Shown here in pieces: positions 2,836-33,935 of a DNA stretch of 64,000 nt. Within the stretch, counting starts at the first letter, position 1. Each line of letters opens with the position of its first letter. The translations under genes and the position numbers were made by a program. Origin of the DNA: Psychrobacter sp. JCM 18900 (GTDB taxonomy: Bacteria; Pseudomonadota; Gammaproteobacteria; Pseudomonadales; Moraxellaceae); contig NZ_CAJHBL010000004.1 of NCBI RefSeq assembly GCF_904846625.1, forward strand, positions 248,001 to 312,000, in the 5' to 3' direction. Below the pieces are notes generated by a model, which saw only the letters and a list, made by a program, of their open reading frames with translations, did not search any database and was not told the DNA's origin.

Positions 2836-3537
2836 ATGTTTTTAGCAATGGATACCGTGTTCGACCAGTGTTCGATCGCGATTTTAGATTCGAGCGGACA
2901 GGTACTATCGAGCCATACCGAAACAGGTAAGCGTCAGCAGACTCAGCAGATTTTACCGATGATTGATGCTGCATTGTCTGAGGCACAGTTACGTCTTGCT
3001 GATATACAGGCTTTAATATTTAATCGCGGGCCGGGTGCGTTTAGTGGTATCCGTATTAATACGGCAGTGGTACAGGCTCTGTCTGTAGCGCATGACTTGC
3101 CTTGCGTTGGCGTCTCAAGCCTGCAAGCAATCGCACAATGTGCGTATCAGAAATACGGGCTGACACACCTATACAGCGCCCTTGATGCTCGTATGCAGCA
3201 AGTTTACTTTGGGCAGTATGAATTGGTAACTGACGACCAATTAGGTTATAGCATTATGCAGCCAGTCTTGGCTGATTGTGGCGATAGCACTGAGCAACTA
3301 TTAGATTATGATAGCCAAACAGAGCTCAACCTGCCTATCGTTGGTAATGGCGCGCCGCTATTGGCACGACATGATCAGCAAGACTGTCATGAAGATGTTT
3401 GGCCAGATGCTGTTGTCATTGGGCAGCTTGGTATTGCCCAGTTTGCAAACGATGGTGGTACAGAAGCGTCACAGGCATTACCAAAATATCTACGTAATCA
3501 AGCTTGGAAAACACTTAAAGAGCAAGGCAAAGCATAG
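2836..3537 (+). CDS. tsaB: tRNA threonylcarbamoyladenosine biosynthesis protein TsaB
   Basis: TsaB is the dimerisation partner of TsaD in the complex that puts threonylcarbamoyl on A37 of ANN-decoding tRNAs. The protein opens with the ASKHA-type strand FLAMDTVFDQCSIAILD and carries the signature FNRGPGAFSGIRI near residue 62, close to the GPGSFTGxRIG of other TsaB proteins. At about 233 residues it has the usual length and, as expected for TsaB, lacks the metal-binding motifs of TsaD. GTG (2833) and ATG (2836) are adjacent. I chose ATG because the GAGG at 2827-2830 is then five bases away. The upstream gap of about 200 bp after the ffh terminator suggests its own promoter. Confidence 0.93.
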   Translation: MFLAMDTVFDQCSIAILDSSGQVLSSHTETGKRQQTQQILPMIDAALSEAQLRLADIQALIFNRGPGAFSGIRINTAVVQALSVAHDLPCVGVSSLQAIAQCAYQKYGLTHLYSALDARMQQVYFGQYELVTDDQLGYSIMQPVLADCGDSTEQLLDYDSQTELNLPIVGNGAPLLARHDQQDCHEDVWPDAVVIGQLGIAQFANDGGTEASQALPKYLRNQAWKTLKEQGKA

Positions 3538-3632
3538 CTTTATAAATATACTTTTTGCAGCCAGCTTTTTAGTGTTTAGCAAGCGCATACCAATATAAAA
3601 TCAACGTTAATATAGGACAGCCAATCGGTCTG

Positions 3633-3657
3633 TTTTTAGGCCAGTTTTTTAGGCCAG
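3633..3657 (+). repeat. Short tandem repeat upstream of uppP
   Basis: Two near-identical adjacent units of TTTTTAGGCCAG lie in the 140-bp gap before uppP, flanked on both sides by TCTGTTT-C/T-TAGG-like sequence. The partial third unit overlaps the AGGA that serves as the uppP ribosome-binding site. Confidence 0.6.
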
Positions 3658-3678
3658 TCTGTTTCTAGGAAAGTCACT

Positions 3679-4521
3679 GTGGATATAGTTTTATTCGTTC
3701 AAGCTGTCATCATGGGTATCGTTGAAGGTATCACTGAGTTTTTACCCATCTCTAGTACGGGATATTTGATTTTATCAGCAGATGTGATGGGTTTCTGGAC
3801 TAAAGAAAAAGTCGATTTATTTGTCGTGGTGGTACAGCTTGGCGCTATTTTAGCAGTGATTTATGACTATTGGGGTAGGTTATGGCAAGCGCTGATGGGC
3901 TTGCTGACTGGTAAATCAGAGGGCATGACCAATCCTAGACAGCTAGGACTGAGTCTGATTGTCTCTACTATCCCTGTGATGATTGTTGGTTTTACTTTTG
4001 CCGATGAAATCAAAGCTTATTTGTTTAATCCTATCGTCGTTGCCATTATGCTCATCATTGGCGGTCTGCTGATATTTTACGTGGAAAAGCGTCCTAAAAC
4101 GGTCATTGCAGAAGAAGCGGAAGATGTCAGCATAAAAACTGCGTTGATGATTGGTTTGTTCCAATGTTTAGCTCTTATACCAGGGACGTCACGCTCAGGT
4201 GCTACTATTATTGGTGCGCTGTGGTTAGGTGTCTCACGTAAGGCTTCTGCTGAGTTTTCTTTCTTTTTGGGTATTCCTGTCATTGTAGGCGCGGCACTGT
4301 TGGATTTACTCAAACATGGTGACGTACTGACCAACAGTGAAGATTGGCTAGTGCTAGGTATCGGAACCATCGTATCATTTGTAGTAGCGCTACTTTGTAT
4401 CCGCTTACTTGTGGCATGGGTAAGTCGCCGCGACTTTACTATTTTTGCTTGGTTGCGCATTATCACGGGTGTTATCGTGTTGGTCGCCGCTTGGGGCTTT
4501 GGTTATCAAATGGCTGGCTAG
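3679..4521 (+). CDS. uppP: Undecaprenyl-diphosphatase UppP (BacA)
   Basis: This integral membrane phosphatase converts undecaprenyl diphosphate to the monophosphate, recycling the lipid carrier for peptidoglycan and other envelope glycans. Its loss sensitises cells to bacitracin in characterised species. Both family signatures are present: the N-terminal EGITEFLPISSTGYLIL block and the central PGTSRSGATIIGALW block that supplies catalytic Ser/Arg residues. About eight hydrophobic segments span the 280 residues, the normal length. The start is GTG at 3679, supported by AGGAAAG at 3668 with suitable spacing. It stands between tsaB and rsmJ on the same strand. Confidence 0.97.
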   Translation: MDIVLFVQAVIMGIVEGITEFLPISSTGYLILSADVMGFWTKEKVDLFVVVVQLGAILAVIYDYWGRLWQALMGLLTGKSEGMTNPRQLGLSLIVSTIPVMIVGFTFADEIKAYLFNPIVVAIMLIIGGLLIFYVEKRPKTVIAEEAEDVSIKTALMIGLFQCLALIPGTSRSGATIIGALWLGVSRKASAEFSFFLGIPVIVGAALLDLLKHGDVLTNSEDWLVLGIGTIVSFVVALLCIRLLVAWVSRRDFTIFAWLRIITGVIVLVAAWGFGYQMAG

Positions 4522-23096: not shown

Positions 23097-23188
23097 GAGT
23101 TAGATACGCAGGTTGGTTTGTATTGATACACTATTATAAAGGGTCTGGGAGTGGATAGGGTAGCGATACGAATATAGCAAGGTAACGA

Positions 23189-23295
23189 TATAGTCAATCC
23201 TCTATAAAAGAGTGATAGCGTTAACCTCGTCTGAAGTATCACAGTTACCTCTACACTCGGTTGCCTTGACTCTCTTTTAAACTGAATTAACGATA
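23189..23295 (-). repeat. MITE-like 107-bp dispersed element, copy 1
   Basis: This element is read here on the minus strand so that it aligns with the copy at 32962-33068. The two have the same length, and I count 93 matches in 107 positions. Both start TATxGTT and end in ACTATA-type sequence. The ends form imperfect inverted repeats of 24 bp, 18 of 24 matched in this copy. No gene is inside. It lies between the YjjP start and the DUF503 gene. Non-autonomous transposition, a regulatory repeat, or a processed RNA structure are all possible. Confidence 0.85.
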
Positions 23296-23360
23296 GAATC
23301 ACTCACAGTACTGATTTGCTACTATTATAAAGCGTAAACCCTTATCGCAAGGAGCATAAA

Positions 23361-23642
23361 ATGCATATCGCTATTTTGACGCTGGCGTTTTCATTGCCTG
23401 GCTGTGGCTCGTTAAAAGAAAAACGCCACCGTATGGGCGACTTGCATGCGCGCTTTGGCAATACGCCAAGTGTCGCGGTATGTGAAAGCGGTGAGCGCGA
23501 TCGGCATGATGCCAGCGAGTGGACGTTTGTGATTATCGGGCTGTCTAAACGTGAGGTCGAGTCGCAATGTAGTCAGATTGAAGAGAAGCTAGAGCGTACG
23601 GTGGATGCAAGAGTAATGAATGTTGAGAGGGAGTTTGTTTAG
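23361..23642 (+). CDS. DUF503 family protein (YlxP-like)
   Basis: This 93-residue protein matches DUF503, which is found beside translation genes (ylxP) in Firmicutes. Visible family blocks are LKEKRHRM near residue 19 and FVIIGLSKREVESQCSQIEE. It has a beta-alpha-beta pattern with no catalytic motif. The start is supported by AAGGAGCATAAA immediately upstream. It is a one-gene unit; molecular function is unknown. Confidence 0.85.
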   Translation: MHIAILTLAFSLPGCGSLKEKRHRMGDLHARFGNTPSVAVCESGERDRHDASEWTFVIIGLSKREVESQCSQIEEKLERTVDARVMNVEREFV

Positions 23643-23711
23643 GTTGGGGCATCTTTGTAGATAGCCAATTGGGGCTAAATCGCGTCTCATGACAGCTATT
23701 CAGTATTACGA

Positions 23712-25481
23712 TTATATATTCTCTAAGTTATTCGTAAGCTCTAAAAGATGCTCGATAGCTGCTTTGCTATTCGGTTTTTCTTCGATTCTCTCTTGGAGTA
23801 ACTCTAAAGTCCATTTCTTAACTTCTTTAAATTTAGAACTACCAGTTCTAAAAGCAGGGTGTTTTAACAATTCTCGAATATATAGCATTCTACTTAACCC
23901 ATCACTGAGCGGCTGCCAAATAACAACACTGAAGCTTTCTTTGCTAATATTTTGTATAGCTGCGAAAAAATCCTCACTATCATTTCCATGTTTGCAAAAT
24001 CGCATAAAAATTTTAGACATAATATCAGCGTTGTCATTTGAGATAAGATCTTTTTTATGTCTTTTTACAGCTTGCTGAAGAAAGTTATAAAAAAGATCAT
24101 TTGTATTTGAATGATTCAAATAATAGCTTTCCATAAGACCTTGCTCTAAACCTTTCGAAACTTTTTCTTCAATATAGTTCTCTACCAACTCTTTAAGTTG
24201 GTCAGATAGATCAGAAGCTCCATTTTTCCTTAATATATTATAGTAGAAGCTTAAATTAGGGAGCGCTTCTCTATCTATTCTACTTTTAATATTATCAAAA
24301 ATTCTTTGGTTAAATCCATGTTCTGGGTTTAAACTATGATACTCAATCATCGATTCTTGTTTTTCTCTATCGTTTTCTAATTGAGCTTCTGTGAGTCTGT
24401 CAGATAGGCTTAATTCTTCGATAACATCACTTTCTGTGTCTAAATCAATAAGTAAGCCTGTTATTATTTCACTCCAGCCTGAAAGCTCAAAGTAGCTATA
24501 AAATTGAGAAATAGTATCATCCATCAATTTGAATTTTCTTGCTACTTCAATTTTTTCTTTATCATCTAATTTGTCTTCATCTGATATGAGTGCCAGATCA
24601 AGGTCGTAACCACGAAGCTCATCGACTCTAGGTGAGCTATATGACTCCACAAAGAAATCGAAATCAATAGTATTGTCAAAAATAGAAGGCATATCATGTG
24701 CCATACGTATAATTAAAAGAGCTTCCAAAATTTGTTTCTTACTAGTAAAAGACAAGTCATCGTCTGCATTGTTTAGCATAGCTTCAAATGTGTTTTTAAC
24801 ACGCTGGTAAAACCTTATATTTTTGATGTTCATAGTTTGATAAAAATTTTCGTATATAGGAAAAAGTTCATTATTTATGATTATCTCTTTGATGATAGAT
24901 AGTGAGTTATCTAAAGTTAACACCTCATCAAACACTTTTTCCTTATATTCTCTAAAGTCTTTGTCTGCTTTACCTTCATGTAATATTACTACGACTTTAC
25001 AGTTTTTTTCTAAGCTTAAATGGTTAACTAATCCCATAACATCTTTGATATCTATATTCTTAGATAACCTTTCAATATCGTCAATACAAATCAAAGTGTC
25101 TCCGATAAGACTAGTAATTGTACTGCTAATCAAGCCTTTACCAAGAGATAATGTGATGCCTGTACCTTCAAGCTTTGGTAAATCTATGACATCTAAGCTC
25201 TTTTTGAAGATACCTTTGAGACCAGAGAGATAGTCTTTTTTCTGAGTAGTCTCATGGGTGCTAAGAGCAATTTCAAATTTTAATGCTTCTATTGAATCTA
25301 TACCGAAAAGAGAGACATAAGAGTATTTACTAACACCTAAATCTATATGGTTTTCCTCGTAGAAATTATTCCAAAAGCGCGTCTTTCCAATACCCCATTC
25401 ACCAGTCAGAGCAATAGCAAAAGAGTCTTTATTATTGATAAGCTTCAAAAGCTTTTTTTCAAGATTTGCTACATTTGCCAT
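23712..25481 (-). CDS. KAP-family P-loop NTPase, possible defence or signalling protein
   Basis: The N-terminal domain has Walker A GEWGIGKT (residues 27-34) and Walker B LICIDDIER (130-138). The GEWGxGKT motif and the IDDIERL acid pattern are those of the KAP P-loop NTPases (PF07693). The family includes the phage-exclusion protein PifA of F and eukaryotic membrane proteins. The remaining 400 residues are helical and acidic, with no other domain I recognise. Unlike many KAP proteins, no clear membrane helix is inserted in the NTPase domain. The gene is markedly AT-rich relative to its neighbours. It stands alone, which suggests horizontal gain. A role in antiphage defence is inference. Confidence 0.78.
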   Translation of the reverse strand: MANVANLEKKLLKLINNKDSFAIALTGEWGIGKTRFWNNFYEENHIDLGVSKYSYVSLFGIDSIEALKFEIALSTHETTQKKDYLSGLKGIFKKSLDVIDLPKLEGTGITLSLGKGLISSTITSLIGDTLICIDDIERLSKNIDIKDVMGLVNHLSLEKNCKVVVILHEGKADKDFREYKEKVFDEVLTLDNSLSIIKEIIINNELFPIYENFYQTMNIKNIRFYQRVKNTFEAMLNNADDDLSFTSKKQILEALLIIRMAHDMPSIFDNTIDFDFFVESYSSPRVDELRGYDLDLALISDEDKLDDKEKIEVARKFKLMDDTISQFYSYFELSGWSEIITGLLIDLDTESDVIEELSLSDRLTEAQLENDREKQESMIEYHSLNPEHGFNQRIFDNIKSRIDREALPNLSFYYNILRKNGASDLSDQLKELVENYIEEKVSKGLEQGLMESYYLNHSNTNDLFYNFLQQAVKRHKKDLISNDNADIMSKIFMRFCKHGNDSEDFFAAIQNISKESFSVVIWQPLSDGLSRMLYIRELLKHPAFRTGSSKFKEVKKWTLELLQERIEEKPNSKAAIEHLLELTNNLENI

Positions 25482-25548
25482 TGCTAACTACCTTACAGGT
25501 GTTCGTATATTAATAATGATATTAGCACTGAATCTGAATTAAACCCAA

Positions 25549-25582
25549 CAAAAAAGGCCACTCCCTAAAGAGTAGCCTTTTA
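25549..25582 (-). terminator. Terminator downstream of small lipoprotein gene
   Basis: On the minus strand AAAAGGCTACTC pairs with GAGTGGCCTTTT around a TTTAGG loop, followed by a T-run. It ends the lipoprotein transcript before the KAP start. It is nearly identical to the hairpin at 26145-26178. Confidence 0.85.
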
Positions 25583-25635
25583 TCAATGAGCATCTAAAAA
25601 GTATTAATTATTGCGGACGGCCTTGGCCATGTCCT

Positions 25636-25884
25636 TCAGGTTTTTTTATACCCTTTTGCAGTCATACAGGCTTCTAGCTTCTTCATATCACTTTTACTTG
25701 GACGACTTTCTTTAGACATTTTTACGCCAGCTCGTTGAGCACAATCATCCATGGCTTGTTTCATATCAGCAGACATTGCAGGTCTTTGATGGTTGCGATC
25801 GCTTACGCCATTTGATGTGCCGCTTGACGCACAGGCACTAACGCCAACAGTAGATGCTAAGACAATAAATAGTAATTTTTTCAT
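25636..25884 (-). CDS. Small lipoprotein with disputed C-terminus
   Basis: An 82-residue protein with a good signal peptide and lipobox (VSACASS), then a mature part with a two-Cys pattern (MDDCAQRAG and KKLEACMTAKGYKK). The start has AAGGA at proper spacing. The ORF ends GYKKT just after a run of seven A bases (25651-25657 on the plus strand as T). If that run were one base shorter, the protein would instead end KKPEGHGQGRPQ and stop at 25608. The Gly/Pro-rich tail looks genuine, so a sequencing error, a recent frameshift or slippage is likely. Function is unknown. Confidence 0.72.
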   Translation of the reverse strand: MKKLLFIVLASTVGVSACASSGTSNGVSDRNHQRPAMSADMKQAMDDCAQRAGVKMSKESRPSKSDMKKLEACMTAKGYKKT

Positions 25885-26144
25885 AAGAATTCCTTAAGAG
25901 TTTCAGAGGTCGTACAAGAATGAGTAACGTCAATTTGTGTTGGCTATATCGTTATTAACCAGTTGTTTCTATATCGTGTGCGTTTACGTGTCATATCTCA
26001 CCAGTTAAATATTAATACATTTAACTTTTAAATATCTTTAATAAATATTAAGAAAGGTAACGTAGCGAAGTAACTTAAGCCTTAGTTTATATAGCAATTT
26101 TCATTCATAGCTTATAGTTTGCGCTTTGCTTTATACCAACCAAT
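25885..26144. other. Gap between small lipoprotein and uvrA terminator
   Basis: This stretch carries the lipoprotein promoter region and is AT-rich. I see no ORF or RNA gene here. Short degenerate ATTAAATATT-like repeats are present near 26005-26050. Confidence 0.5.
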
Positions 26145-26178
26145 AAAAAAGGCCACCCTATGAAGAGTAGCCTTTTAT
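26145..26178 (-). terminator. Terminator of uvrA
   Basis: On the minus strand AAAAGGCTACTC pairs imperfectly with GGGTGGCCTTTT around a TTCATA loop, then a T-run. It lies 20 bases after the uvrA stop and shares roughly 38 of 43 positions with the terminator at 25549. Confidence 0.85.
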
Positions 26179-26196
26179 CAATCAAGACTAAGGGTA

Positions 26197-29103
26197 TTAG
26201 CCGACTTCTTTCATACCTTGCTCAAGCATTGGCTTTAAGAATATACCCGTGTAGGATTCTTTGACTTCAGCCACTTCCTCGGGTGTACCTTCCGCGATGA
26301 TCATACCGCCACCTTTACCGCCTTCAGGGCCTAGATCAATCACCCAGTCTGCCGTTTTAATAACATCCAAGTTATGCTCGATGACCACGATAGTATTACC
26401 TTTATCGCGTAGGGCATGCAGGATATTGAGCAGCTTATCGATATCATGGAAATGCAAACCAGTGGTTGGCTCATCCAAGATATACAGCGTCTGTCCCGTA
26501 TCACGTTTGGCAAGCTCACGCGCCAGTTTGACACGTTGCGCCTCACCACCTGATAGTGTTGGCGCAGACTGGCCCAAGCGAATATAGCTCAGACCGACAT
26601 CCATCAGTGCTTGCAGACGACGATAGATGGCTGGTATCGCTGAGAAGAACTCAACGGCATCTTCAACAGTCATATCAAGCACATCAGCGATGGTTTTGCC
26701 TTTATAGTGAATCTCTAGTGTCTCGCGGTTGTAGCGTTTGCCTTCACAGGTATCACACGGCACATACATATCAGGCAAGAAATGCATCTCAACTTTGATG
26801 AGACCATCACCTTGACACATCTCACAGCGTCCGCCTTTTACATTGAAGCTAAAGCGACCAGGCTTATAGCCACGGGCACGCGCTTCTTGCGTCTGGGCAA
26901 ACATCTCGCGCACAGGGGTAAACACACCTGTATAAGTTGCTGGGTTTGAGCGCGGCGTACGGCCGATTGGGCTTTGATCAATATCGACCATTTTGTCCAA
27001 ATGCTCAAGACCGCTAATGCTTTCAAACTTGTCGGCAATCAGCGTTGAGGCATTGTTTAACTGAGTCGCTGCCAATGGCATAAGCGTACGGTTAATCAAG
27101 GTTGATTTACCTGAACCTGAGACACCCGTCACACAAGTCATGATGCCAACAGGAATGGTCAAATCCACATCGTGTAGGTTATTACCTGACGCGCCTTTTA
27201 GCTCGATGGTCATCGGTACTTTTTTGGATTTGGCCTTACCCTTGACTTCCACATCGATGGTTTTGGCTTTATGACGGACAGTTGGAATCTCGATTTTTTT
27301 CTTACCAGACATATATTGCCCAGTTAGCGACTCTTTATTTGCCATGATGTCATCGACCGTACCTTGAGCGATGACATGACCGCCATGTACGCCTGCACCG
27401 ATACCGATATCGATGACATGATCCGCTTGGCGGATAGCGTCTTCATCATGCTCAACGACCAGTACCGTGTTACCCAAGTCACGCAAGCGCGTTAGGGTTT
27501 TTAGCAGACGATCGTTATCACGCTGATGCAGACCGATTGATGGCTCATCAAGTACGTACATCACACCCATCAGACCAGCACCGATTTGGCTAGCCAAACG
27601 AATACGCTGCGCTTCACCGCCCGATAGTGTTTCGGCAGAGCGAGCAAGGGTCAAATAATCAAGCCCGACGCTCACAAGAAAGTTTAAACGCTCATTAATC
27701 TCTTTAAAGATTTTTTCGGCTACTTCGCCTTTATGACCGCCAATCTTTAGCGTTTTATAATAGTCCGCCGCATCACCGATAGATAGCTTAACGATTTCTG
27801 CAATGGTCTGATCATCGACACGGACATTACGTGAGATTTCATTTAGACGCGCACCATCACAGACGTTACAAGTGGTATCAGCCAGATATTTTGCCAGCTC
27901 GTCACGCACAAGGTTACTTTGCGTCTTGGCATAACGACGCTCTAGGTAAGGAAGCACACCTTCAAATGGTACAGTCTTATTCGTCTTGCGACCGCGCTCG
28001 TCGGTAAAGTTAAAGGTGAGTTTTTCTTTACCAGAGCCGTGCATGATTAGGTCTTGCTGCTCTTTGGACAGATCTTGCCATGGCGCATCCATATCGATTT
28101 TAAAATGCTTACAGACCGTGCTAAGCAAACCAAAATAGTACGCATGACGCTTGTCCCAACCGTTGATTGCGCCTTGGTTAAGTGACTTCTCATGATGAGT
28201 AATCAGCTTTTCAGCGGCGAAATATTGACGTTTACCAAGACCATCACAGCTTGGGCATGCACCATATGGGTTGTTAAAACTGAACATGCGTGGCTCAAGC
28301 TCAGGCACTGCACGATCACAGACAGGGCATGAATGCTTGGCTGACATGACTTGGTTTTCATCACCGCCTTCTTTTGGATTGCCATCCATAAAGTGCAGCG
28401 TGACCAGTCCTTGACCCAAACGTAACGCCGTCTCTAAGCTCTCAGCGACACGGTTGCCCAAGTCATCACGAACTTTAAAGCGATCGACCACCACTTCGAT
28501 GGTATGTTTTTTCTTTTTATCTAACGTTGGTAGCTCATCGGTATCGTAAACATCACCATCGACGCGAACGCGAACAAAACCTTGCCCAATCAGTTGCTCA
28601 AGCAAAACGGTATGCTCACCTTTACGCTCACGAATCACCGGTGCCAAAATCATAATCTTGGTGTCATCTGGCAATGCCATGACCTGATCGACCATTTCAG
28701 TGACTGACTGCGCGACCATTGGCTCACCGTGCTCAGGGCAATATGGCGTACCGATGCGTGCATATAGCAGGCGCAGATAGTCATAAATCTCGGTAATCGT
28801 ACCGACGGTCGAGCGTGGGTTATGGTTGGTGGATTTTTGCTCGATAGCAATCGCAGGGGATAGACCCTCGATACTATCGACGTCAGGCTTCTCCATTTGA
28901 GAAAGGAACTGACGAGCATATGCCGATAAGCTTTCGACATAACGACGTTGCCCTTCGGCATACAAGGTGTCAAATGCCAACGAAGATTTACCAGAGCCAG
29001 ATAGGCCAGTGATTACCACGAATTTATCTCGTGGAATGTCTAAATCGATGTTTTTTAAATTATGAGTACGTGCGCCGCGTATTGCGATATGGTCATGTGC
29101 CAT
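26197..29103 (-). CDS. uvrA: Excinuclease ABC subunit A (UvrA)
   Basis: UvrA is the damage-recognition ATPase of nucleotide excision repair and loads UvrB onto DNA. Two ABC modules are present: Walker [15 protein letters not shown] and ABC signature [14 protein letters not shown] in the first half, then [16 protein letters not shown] and [15 protein letters not shown] in the second. Zinc-binding CxxC pairs appear in [15 protein letters not shown] and [14 protein letters not shown] plus [17 protein letters not shown]. At 968 residues it is slightly longer than E. coli (940), with a Lys-rich insert of about 30 residues between the halves (near [16 protein letters not shown]). No LexA-type operator was seen; Moraxellaceae mostly lack LexA. 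Confidence 0.98.
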
Positions 29104-32952: not shown

Positions 32953-32961
32953 AATGCTTGC

Positions 32962-33068
32962 TATAGTTGATTCAGTTTAAAAGAGATATAAGGCAACTGA
33001 GTGCAGATGTAACTGTGATACTTCAAACGAGGTTAAGGCTGTAGCTCTTTTATAGAGGATTAACTATA
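32962..33068 (+). repeat. MITE-like 107-bp dispersed element, copy 2
   Basis: This element begins TATAGTT just after the ssb terminator and ends AACTATA. The two 24-bp ends are inverted repeats of one another (19 of 24 positions matched), both containing AAAAGAG. Its centre holds GTAACTGTGATACTTC, also present in copy 1 (23189-23295) in the reverse orientation. No gene is inside. Confidence 0.85.
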
Positions 33069-33935
33069 TCCAGAAATGTAATTCAGTTGATGCTTTTTAG
33101 CATAGTTAAACTAAATTTTTATTAAAGAATTTTTTAATTTATTTAATATGCTCTTAATTTTTAATCGAATAAACTTAAGTTTATTTATTATTGGTTTAAC
33201 ACTATTGGTTTTCACATTAGCTAGTATGCTTACTACCTTCCATACTCTATATTGACCGTTTATACCAAAAAATAATTATGATTAGTGACGTTTGGTTTTA
33301 AAAATTGCTATACTAACTTTATATGGCATATAGTTAATATATACTGATCGTCTATAAATAAAATAAATTTCGGTGATAATAACCAAAGTTTTACTTGTTT
33401 CTTATTAATAAATCGAAAGCTATTTGGATAATAGATCTTTATATGAAATGGTTAACTTCTTCGGAACGTACCATAGGAACGACATAGTAAGTTACAGAGC
33501 TGATGCAGAACTATCTCCAAAATTAGCAGTATTTGAGAGTATAGTGCATAGAGATACTACTCTATTATTTTAACAGTAGATTTTGGTCGAAATATTATTG
33601 TGAAATTCTAGCAGTAGTCAAAGTACTAGAATTTTGTTCTATTATTAGGAAATACTTTCGAAGCTATAATAGCAATATATAAAGAATAGTGACTTGTATG
33701 TTTAGATTTATCTAAAACTAATTTTATTTAAAATGGATACAATGAGCATCTGTTGCTATATATCTTCTATTTATAATAGATTGTTCGAGATGCCATTAGA
33801 AATTGAATACTCTTTAGAATTAATTATATTTTATAAATAGAATTAATGGCCAATGAACGATTTGTTCTCCGCATGTTTTCACGAAAAATAATACCTCAAT
33901 AGAGGCCACACTCTTATTTTATAGTTGGATTTATT
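33069..33935 (+). other. Long AT-rich gap upstream of H-NS gene
   Basis: About 870 bp with no ORF that I would call and strongly AT-rich sequence. It includes a 9-bp inverted repeat AAATTCTAG...CTAGAATTT (33603-33634) and repeated AGAATTAAT near 33815-33845. It could be a long leader or promoter region for the H-NS-like gene, possibly bound by H-NS itself, or the decayed site of an earlier gene. I see no RNA gene with confidence. Confidence 0.4.

Follow-up and report, generated by a model that had tools for sequence, protein, structure and literature searches.

The gene described here lies in a 64,000-nucleotide stretch of the genome of Psychrobacter sp. JCM 18900 (contig NZ_CAJHBL010000004.1, positions 248,001 to 312,000, forward strand). 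This whole stretch is referred to as the window, and all coordinates are given in it. An intact open reading frame with an ATG start is located on the minus strand at 23712-25481 and codes for a KAP-type P-loop NTPase of 589 amino acids, which profile matches place in the PADLOC family PDC-S49. The gene occupies a variable cargo slot (23643-26196), recognised by genome comparison, which reaches from the stop codon of a DUF503 gene to the stop codon of uvrA. The DUF503 gene (23361-23642, plus strand, Pfam PF04456), which forms the left flank, was matched in 85 of 105 Psychrobacter genomes, and the C-terminal part of uvrA (26197-29103, minus strand), the right flank, in 103 of them. The genes adjoining the KAP gene are DUF503 and a small gene (LIP, 25636-25884, minus strand), lipoprotein-like by eye and without a Pfam match, which is an accessory slot member found in 23 of the 105 genomes. 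The terminator hairpin of uvrA lies at 26140-26182 on the minus strand, and a second copy of it (43 nt, 88% identical) at 25545-25587, beyond LIP. No tRNA or tmRNA gene flanking the slot was found in a search of the window.

Left of DUF503, and thus outside the slot, lies a MITE-like element of about 110 bp (23187-23296), which has another window copy at 32961-33070. A genome search with the first copy yielded 18 further places, which are 70-97% identical to it and of which one spans just 29 bp. The first-pass annotation had put the element about 420 bp from the 3′ end of the KAP gene, which agrees with the measured 416 bp, but no role of the element is visible, and it was rejected as the vehicle of the KAP gene, because DUF503 stands between the two.

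The KAP gene had been described as AT-rich compared to its surroundings, which the composition of the window confirms. Its GC content is 0.319 vs. 0.448 (sd 0.031) and its GC3 0.273 vs. 0.417 (sd 0.051) for the 46 window genes of at least 120 amino acids, the KAP gene included, and its GC content is the lowest of all 46. The synonymous-codon score is only the sixth lowest in this set, so codon use alone is not extreme. A promoter scan performed no better than on shuffled sequences (8 found vs. 9.1 expected).

The Walker A motif GEWGIGKT (residues 27-34; 25380-25403, minus strand) and the Walker B motif LICIDDIER (residues 130-138; 25068-25094, minus strand) are read from the translation and lie in conserved alignment columns. 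In an alignment of 55 homologues, which includes the window protein, the residues G27, E28, W29, G30, G32, K33, T34, D134, E137, R138, K182, N221, and R223 are invariant, and the Walker B columns C132, D134, D135, E137, and R138 are invariant or nearly so. The Pfam model KAP_NTPase (PF07693) reaches 25.2 bits against a cut-off of 20 over a short aligned stretch (residues 9-45), and AAA_22 scores 27.7 against a cut-off of 27. Together with the intact reading frame and the alignment, this bears out the original assignment as a KAP-type ATPase from its two Walker motifs. The KAP_NTPase profile matches 47 of the 55 homologues at an E-value of 0.001, and the gene is the single copy in its own genome, where no further KAP_NTPase match was found.

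Among the PADLOC models, PDC-S49 is the only one that matches the protein (E-value 1.5e-24, 84.8 bits, residues 17-261), and it also matches all 55 aligned homologues. A phage-derived counterpart, PHROG 4740, covers residues 6-517 with an E-value of 5.5e-40. The search against NCBIfam gave no match, and a sequence search of the PDB returned no solved structure. The PDC-S49 family is already catalogued as a phage defence candidate, the label PDC standing for “phage defence candidate” and hence for candidate status only (PMC11514479). In the literature searched, neither a report of a tested PDC-S49 member nor a mechanism for the family was found.

Inserted transmembrane segments in the NTPase region are common in the KAP family. 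A transmembrane segment is absent from the window protein, whose highest hydropathy over 19 residues is 1.27. PifA has the same value of 1.27, and just 4 of the 55 homologues reach 1.6; for this reason, transmembrane segments were not taken as a strict criterion for KAP proteins.

The AlphaFold model of the whole protein (pLDDT 82.1, pTM 0.62) consists of an AAA+/STAND-like core followed by helices. Foldseek searches with the NTPase and lid gave E-values down to 7.8e-5 with ORC subunits, and NLRP9 and CED-4 were also among the matches. With VIA-align, model residues 1-268 were matched to TnsC (Z 14.2, 238 residues, rmsd 4.3), Cdc6/ORC, MuB, and RdrA (Z 12.9, 188 residues, rmsd 3.8), the range being Z 12.8-14.2 over 188-274 aligned residues with an rmsd of 3.5-8.2; rows within one Z unit count as ties and NSF scores alike, so that these matches identify the fold class only. 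A viral fold library returned general AAA+ matches only. The modelled core accordingly has the fold of the STAND/AAA+ class of switch NTPases.

The remainder of the protein, residues 196-589 (23715-24896, minus strand), forms a variable C-terminal module, which is helical throughout in the AlphaFold models and is considered a putative sensor. The long helical tail had been estimated at roughly 450 residues; its helical nature is supported by the model, but its length past the NTPase core is about 390 residues. As stated in the first-pass annotation, it contains no recognisable domain, no Pfam model scoring above its cut-off in this region. Modelled alone (pLDDT 79.9, pTM 0.59), the tail found nothing significant with Foldseek (best E-value 0.10), and its best VIA-align score (Z 6.3) is within the range given for common helical arrangements; these tail-only searches hardly probed the first 95 residues of the tail model. 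A housekeeping family was therefore matched neither by profile nor by fold, and the label “sensor” is to be read as a deduction, since the fold search gave no significant match. All residues that are invariant among the 55 homologues are found at or before R223 and none farther along, so that the tail contains no conserved active site and is more likely to be a recognition surface than an enzyme. With a pI of 5.0, the protein is acidic and has 39 lysines and arginines against 62 aspartates and glutamates in residues 268-589. About 36-42 additional C-terminal residues are present in the alleles of the stretches L087, L140, L141, L151, and L152, which are absent from the window allele near residues 549-553 (23820-23840).

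To describe the slot, the distance between the 3′ end of uvrA and DUF503 was determined in 66 genomes of the genus, genomes with the flanks on separate contigs or without a DUF503 match being omitted, as were two (G028 and G076) with a DUF503 match far from uvrA on the same contig. The distance ranges from 525 to 8650 bp with a median of 2600 bp and is within 400-1310 bp in just three of the 66 genomes. The control interval at the other end of uvrA, between its 5′ end and an MFS gene, has a median of 679 bp and is within 400-1310 bp in 96 of 98 genomes, the two exceptions, G077 and G078, having 7.6-8.1 kb.

The copy of the uvrA terminator near the uvrA stop codon is found in 74 of 79 stretches that were read in detail (L085-L163). 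Eighteen of the 20 stretches that contain LIP have a second terminator copy 570-660 bp from the uvrA stop codon, and three or four copies each were observed in L096, L099, L103, L153, and L155. These repeats look as if gene-plus-terminator cassettes had been added at the slot. Furthermore, L163 (genome G018) has two copies of the uvrA 3′ end (862-1284 and 3482-3799), on either side of an open reading frame of 474 amino acids, and the partial copy inside the slot covers 141 residues with 97% identity. This duplication hints that cargo can arrive bearing a piece of the flank.

The KAP gene was matched in 17 of the 105 Psychrobacter genomes and is thus not universal in the genus. Sixteen of the 17 matches are in the uvrA slot, bounded on one side by the 3′ end of uvrA and on the other by DUF503 or the place where it used to be; the seventeenth (G022) is a fragment, which lies where a contig ends, next to a gene that is purL by eye. 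Four of the 16 slot copies are interrupted or broken, which indicates that the gene is dispensable. By eye, insertion sequences interrupt the copies in L116 (IS630-like) and in L133 and L135 (IS5-like). The copy in G048 is broken, and since ThrE is broken in the same assembly as well, this break may be an assembly fault.

The cargo of the slot was read in the 79 stretches, 64 of which have both flanks. Counted for the slot alone, 31 of the 79 carry KAP (16) or a different gene to which Pfam or PADLOC gives a defence-type label (15), whereby clusters with several members were labelled from the scanned members, not from every one, and RelA_SpoT and DUF2971 are the softest of the labels. These other genes belong to AbiH (L136, L104), AIPR/AbiU (L128), NACHT (L095, scanned; L113, by clustering), GmrSD (L120), GmrSD_N/NsnA (L149), NADAR with PRTase-CE (L134), RelA_SpoT (L123), and DUF2971/PDC-S31 (L108). 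They also include a gene for a nuclease-like PDDEXK_4/PDC-S26 protein, found with a partner of about 310 residues in L091 (scanned), L092, L094, L112, and L114; the partner had no Pfam or PADLOC match in the scanned member, and the pair is possibly a two-gene system. The first-pass annotation had regarded the KAP gene as an orphan without a second defence gene alongside. This is true for its own genome but not for the site, which is a recurrent cargo slot in the relatives.

Much of the cargo is not defence-like, as judged by eye from an M48-type peptidase, a LysE-type transporter protein of 209 amino acids, and an FAD monooxygenase, so that guilt by association is imperfect here. The slot often holds defence genes without being exclusive to them. 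It combines the properties of a core defence hotspot, conserved core flanks and variable cargo that includes several defence types. A slot protein of about 720 amino acids with a SEC-C tail occurs in L101, L130, and L143, with a NERD match below the cut-off in L101, and proteins of 369, 457, and 356 amino acids without a match are encoded in L118, L138, and L139, respectively. Such little-annotated long slot proteins are candidates for new defence genes.

The alleles of the KAP gene do not follow the relationships of their flanks. The identity of uvrA correlates with that of DUF503 (rho 0.70, p 0.003, n = 10), but not with that of KAP (rho -0.07, p 0.60, n = 12). Judged by uvrA, G084 is closely related (94% nucleotide identity within the last 270 nt of the gene), yet the KAP protein is only 37% identical to that of the window; in G102, uvrA has 82.5% identity, yet the KAP protein is 78% identical. 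Within the gene, the identity between alleles shifts abruptly at a junction near residues 190-200 (24882-24914, minus strand). The alleles of L142 and L087 resemble the window allele up to about residue 190 and poorly beyond, L087 recovering near the end, and L140 displays the reverse pattern, its NTPase part resembling that of L107, its middle that of L087, and its end that of the window allele. Between L141 and L152, dS is 0.76 for residues 1-195, 0.04 for residues 196-400, 0.15 for residues 401-589, and 1.62 for the uvrA tail. Recombination between modules is the plain reading, because protein constraint cannot readily yield such differences at synonymous sites. These comparisons show that the NTPase and the C-terminal module differ in their history and that both whole alleles and the C-terminal module have been exchanged horizontally. 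The dN/dS of the NTPase part is 0.04-0.18 in eight pairs, in line with purifying selection; the gene has therefore been under selection.

Outside the genus, a profile built from the alleles was searched against 346 Moraxellaceae genomes, of which 41 were matched, 25 of them not from Psychrobacter. The flanks were inspected for 14 of these 25, and uvrA is located at most 1.5 kb from the KAP gene in 11 of the 14 loci and at about 1.6 kb in a twelfth. KAP and uvrA are on the same strand in all 16 Psychrobacter slots and convergent in all 11 loci of a second genus (g15), which speaks for more than one arrival at a common site or for an inversion. This second genus is taken to be Acinetobacter, as the annotated A. 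baumannii sequence CP040042.1 has the order GGDEF gene, NTPase, uvrA of the second-genus loci. Forty genomes of this genus, ranked by uvrA similarity with G179 passed over, were sampled; 35 had both flanks, and five without a GGDEF gene in the stretch were excluded. The slot is empty in 16 of the 35 (14 with a gap below 120 bp and two, of 138 and 157 bp, without a gene) and holds cargo in 19, including an AbiJ_NTD4-like cluster in seven, of which one member was scanned, and KAP in two. Beside the GGDEF gene bordering the slot, an OXA-type beta-lactamase-like gene was seen by eye in L344, L353, and L354.

Beyond the Moraxellaceae, no uvrA match was present in flanks of up to 6 kb in the loci examined. 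The 103 homologue loci fall into 53 groups at 70% identity, across which no conserved partner gene was found; the commonest neighbour families, P2-type terminase and portal, occur in five of the 53. Among the viral homologues, 25 of 46 loci, near-identical prophages included, have the KAP gene between P2 gpA and gpQ, the genes of this region having been identified through PHROGs in L244. This interval is the old/tin locus (PMC9122126), a hotspot in which tested defence systems have been found (PMC9122126; PMC9519451). Relatives were also seen in Campylobacter phages, in a phage of the SPbeta type, and on replicons with a size of about 105-115 kb, one of which resembles a phage-plasmid and has a tail-fibre gene near the KAP relative. 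A homologue in Aggregatibacter actinomycetemcomitans DSM 8324 (L171), whose frame is broken, is 39% identical over residues 1-477.

Based on this context, the KAP gene is interpreted as a candidate anti-phage system that consists of a single gene and belongs to the KAP NTPases, and as one of the interchangeable cargoes of a defence slot next to the uvrA 3′ end; we assign this reading a probability of about 0.6. Of the earlier proposal of a single-gene defence or stress system, the first half thus gains support from the context and the second half none. In the mechanism envisaged, the helical C-terminal module would recognise a phage component, and recognition would lead to nucleotide-dependent oligomerisation of the NTPase. 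The resulting assembly might stop the infection, either by arresting the infected cell or by blocking a phage process. Since the searches detected neither a nuclease or NADase domain nor a membrane domain, either a host factor or the NTPase assembly would serve as the effector, and a separate effector gene would not be needed. That the tail sets the phage specificity is put forward tentatively. It is likewise a conceivable, if somewhat doubtful, extension that the modules of an immune receptor made of one protein are naturally shuffled in the Moraxellaceae uvrA slot, the NTPase motor being kept while the helical sensor half is exchanged across species by recombination near YKEKVFDEV (residues 179-187), resetting the phage specificity.

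Alternatively, the protein could exclude plasmids, prophages, or other entering DNA, the NTPase acting on incoming DNA like the DNA-assembling AAA+ initiators. TnsC, Cdc6/ORC, and MuB are indeed among the best structural matches of residues 1-268, and homologues are located on phage-plasmid-like replicons and in prophages. However, the same fold is common to other AAA+/STAND proteins such as NSF, RdrA, NLRP9, and CED-4, and the acidic character of the protein does not favour a DNA-binding tail. This explanation is considered unlikely.

The AT-richness, the patchy occurrence, the varied neighbours, and the interrupted or broken slot copies would also suit a selfish or neutral passenger, which recombination spreads at an intergenic site that tolerates insertions and which gives the host no present benefit. 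The purifying selection on the NTPase part argues against this, as does the fact that distant species have recently exchanged the C-terminal module, and a mere passenger is considered improbable. A different kind of regulator or a toxin-like NTPase, sensing for instance nutrient or envelope stress, appears a shade more improbable still, as the gene is found in defence hotspots of both phages and bacteria. Finally, a role together with UvrA or in the response to DNA-damage stress, which the position beside uvrA in 16 of the 17 genus matches and in 12 of the 14 loci of other genera might suggest, was rejected as very improbable, because the orientation to uvrA is opposite in two genera and many unrelated genes take the same place, to which the non-Moraxellaceae loci without nearby uvrA and the 88 of 105 genus genomes without a KAP match may be added.

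As a candidate anti-phage system, the gene touches on a general question, since KAP NTPases recur in defence settings and no account was found of how the soluble single-gene ones work. The alleles form a natural series at one fixed site, alike in the motor and unlike in the C-terminal module, so that the question of whether the tail determines specificity is open to module swaps. Moreover, looking into this slot would be a simple way to find further defence genes across Moraxellaceae, several of its cargo proteins being unannotated. In the literature searched on uvrA and Psychrobacter defence hotspots, neither the slot nor the exchange of KAP modules was found; a paper on Acinetobacter defence hotspots (PMC11723918, cited in PMC12421847) could already describe the slot in that genus.

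Compared to known systems, the window protein resembles PDC-S49 in being a single gene product of about 600 residues with a profile match, and differs in a C-terminal module that has diverged beyond the profile. The homologue in L244, from the gpA-gpQ hotspot of a P2-like prophage, belongs to PHROG 4740 and thus to the same family with the same layout; these relatives are carried by phages, share about 30% identity in the NTPase part, and show no local match to the tail. The proposed exchange of the sensor half can be compared to the HsdS subunits of type I restriction systems, which swap their target-recognition domains.

The first-pass annotation had also drawn a link to PifA, which we take to be the gene after pifC on plasmid F, annotated as “P-loop NTPase fold protein”. 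Both are P-loop NTPases with a DD(I/L)(E/D)R Walker B motif followed by a YKEKV/YLQKI stretch. The link persists in the NTPase core, where it is weak (BLASTP E-value 0.004 as a single comparison, with the best piece in the core; hhalign probability 41% over 66 columns), but not elsewhere. PifA has 741 amino acids and adjoins pifC, and there is no convincing similarity beyond the core. Membership in the PifA exclusion system was therefore rejected for want of full-length similarity and of a pifC neighbour, DUF503 and LIP being found instead. No paper joining PifA, KAP, NTPase, and phage, and none joining RdrA and KAP, was retrieved from the literature. Tmn is likewise described as a KAP-family NTPase, which has two transmembrane domains and inhibits T2, P1, and other phages (PMC11846954). 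Since Tmn requires these two domains and the window protein has no transmembrane segment, an assignment to Tmn was rejected as well.

As a site, the uvrA slot can be compared to the core defence hotspots (cDHS) of Pseudomonas aeruginosa (PMC10250203). With 0.5-8.7 kb, it is much smaller than these, usually holds one or a few genes, and has no tRNA or tmRNA flank in the window, whereas conserved flanks, varied defence cargo, a lower GC content, and independence of one mobile element are common to both.
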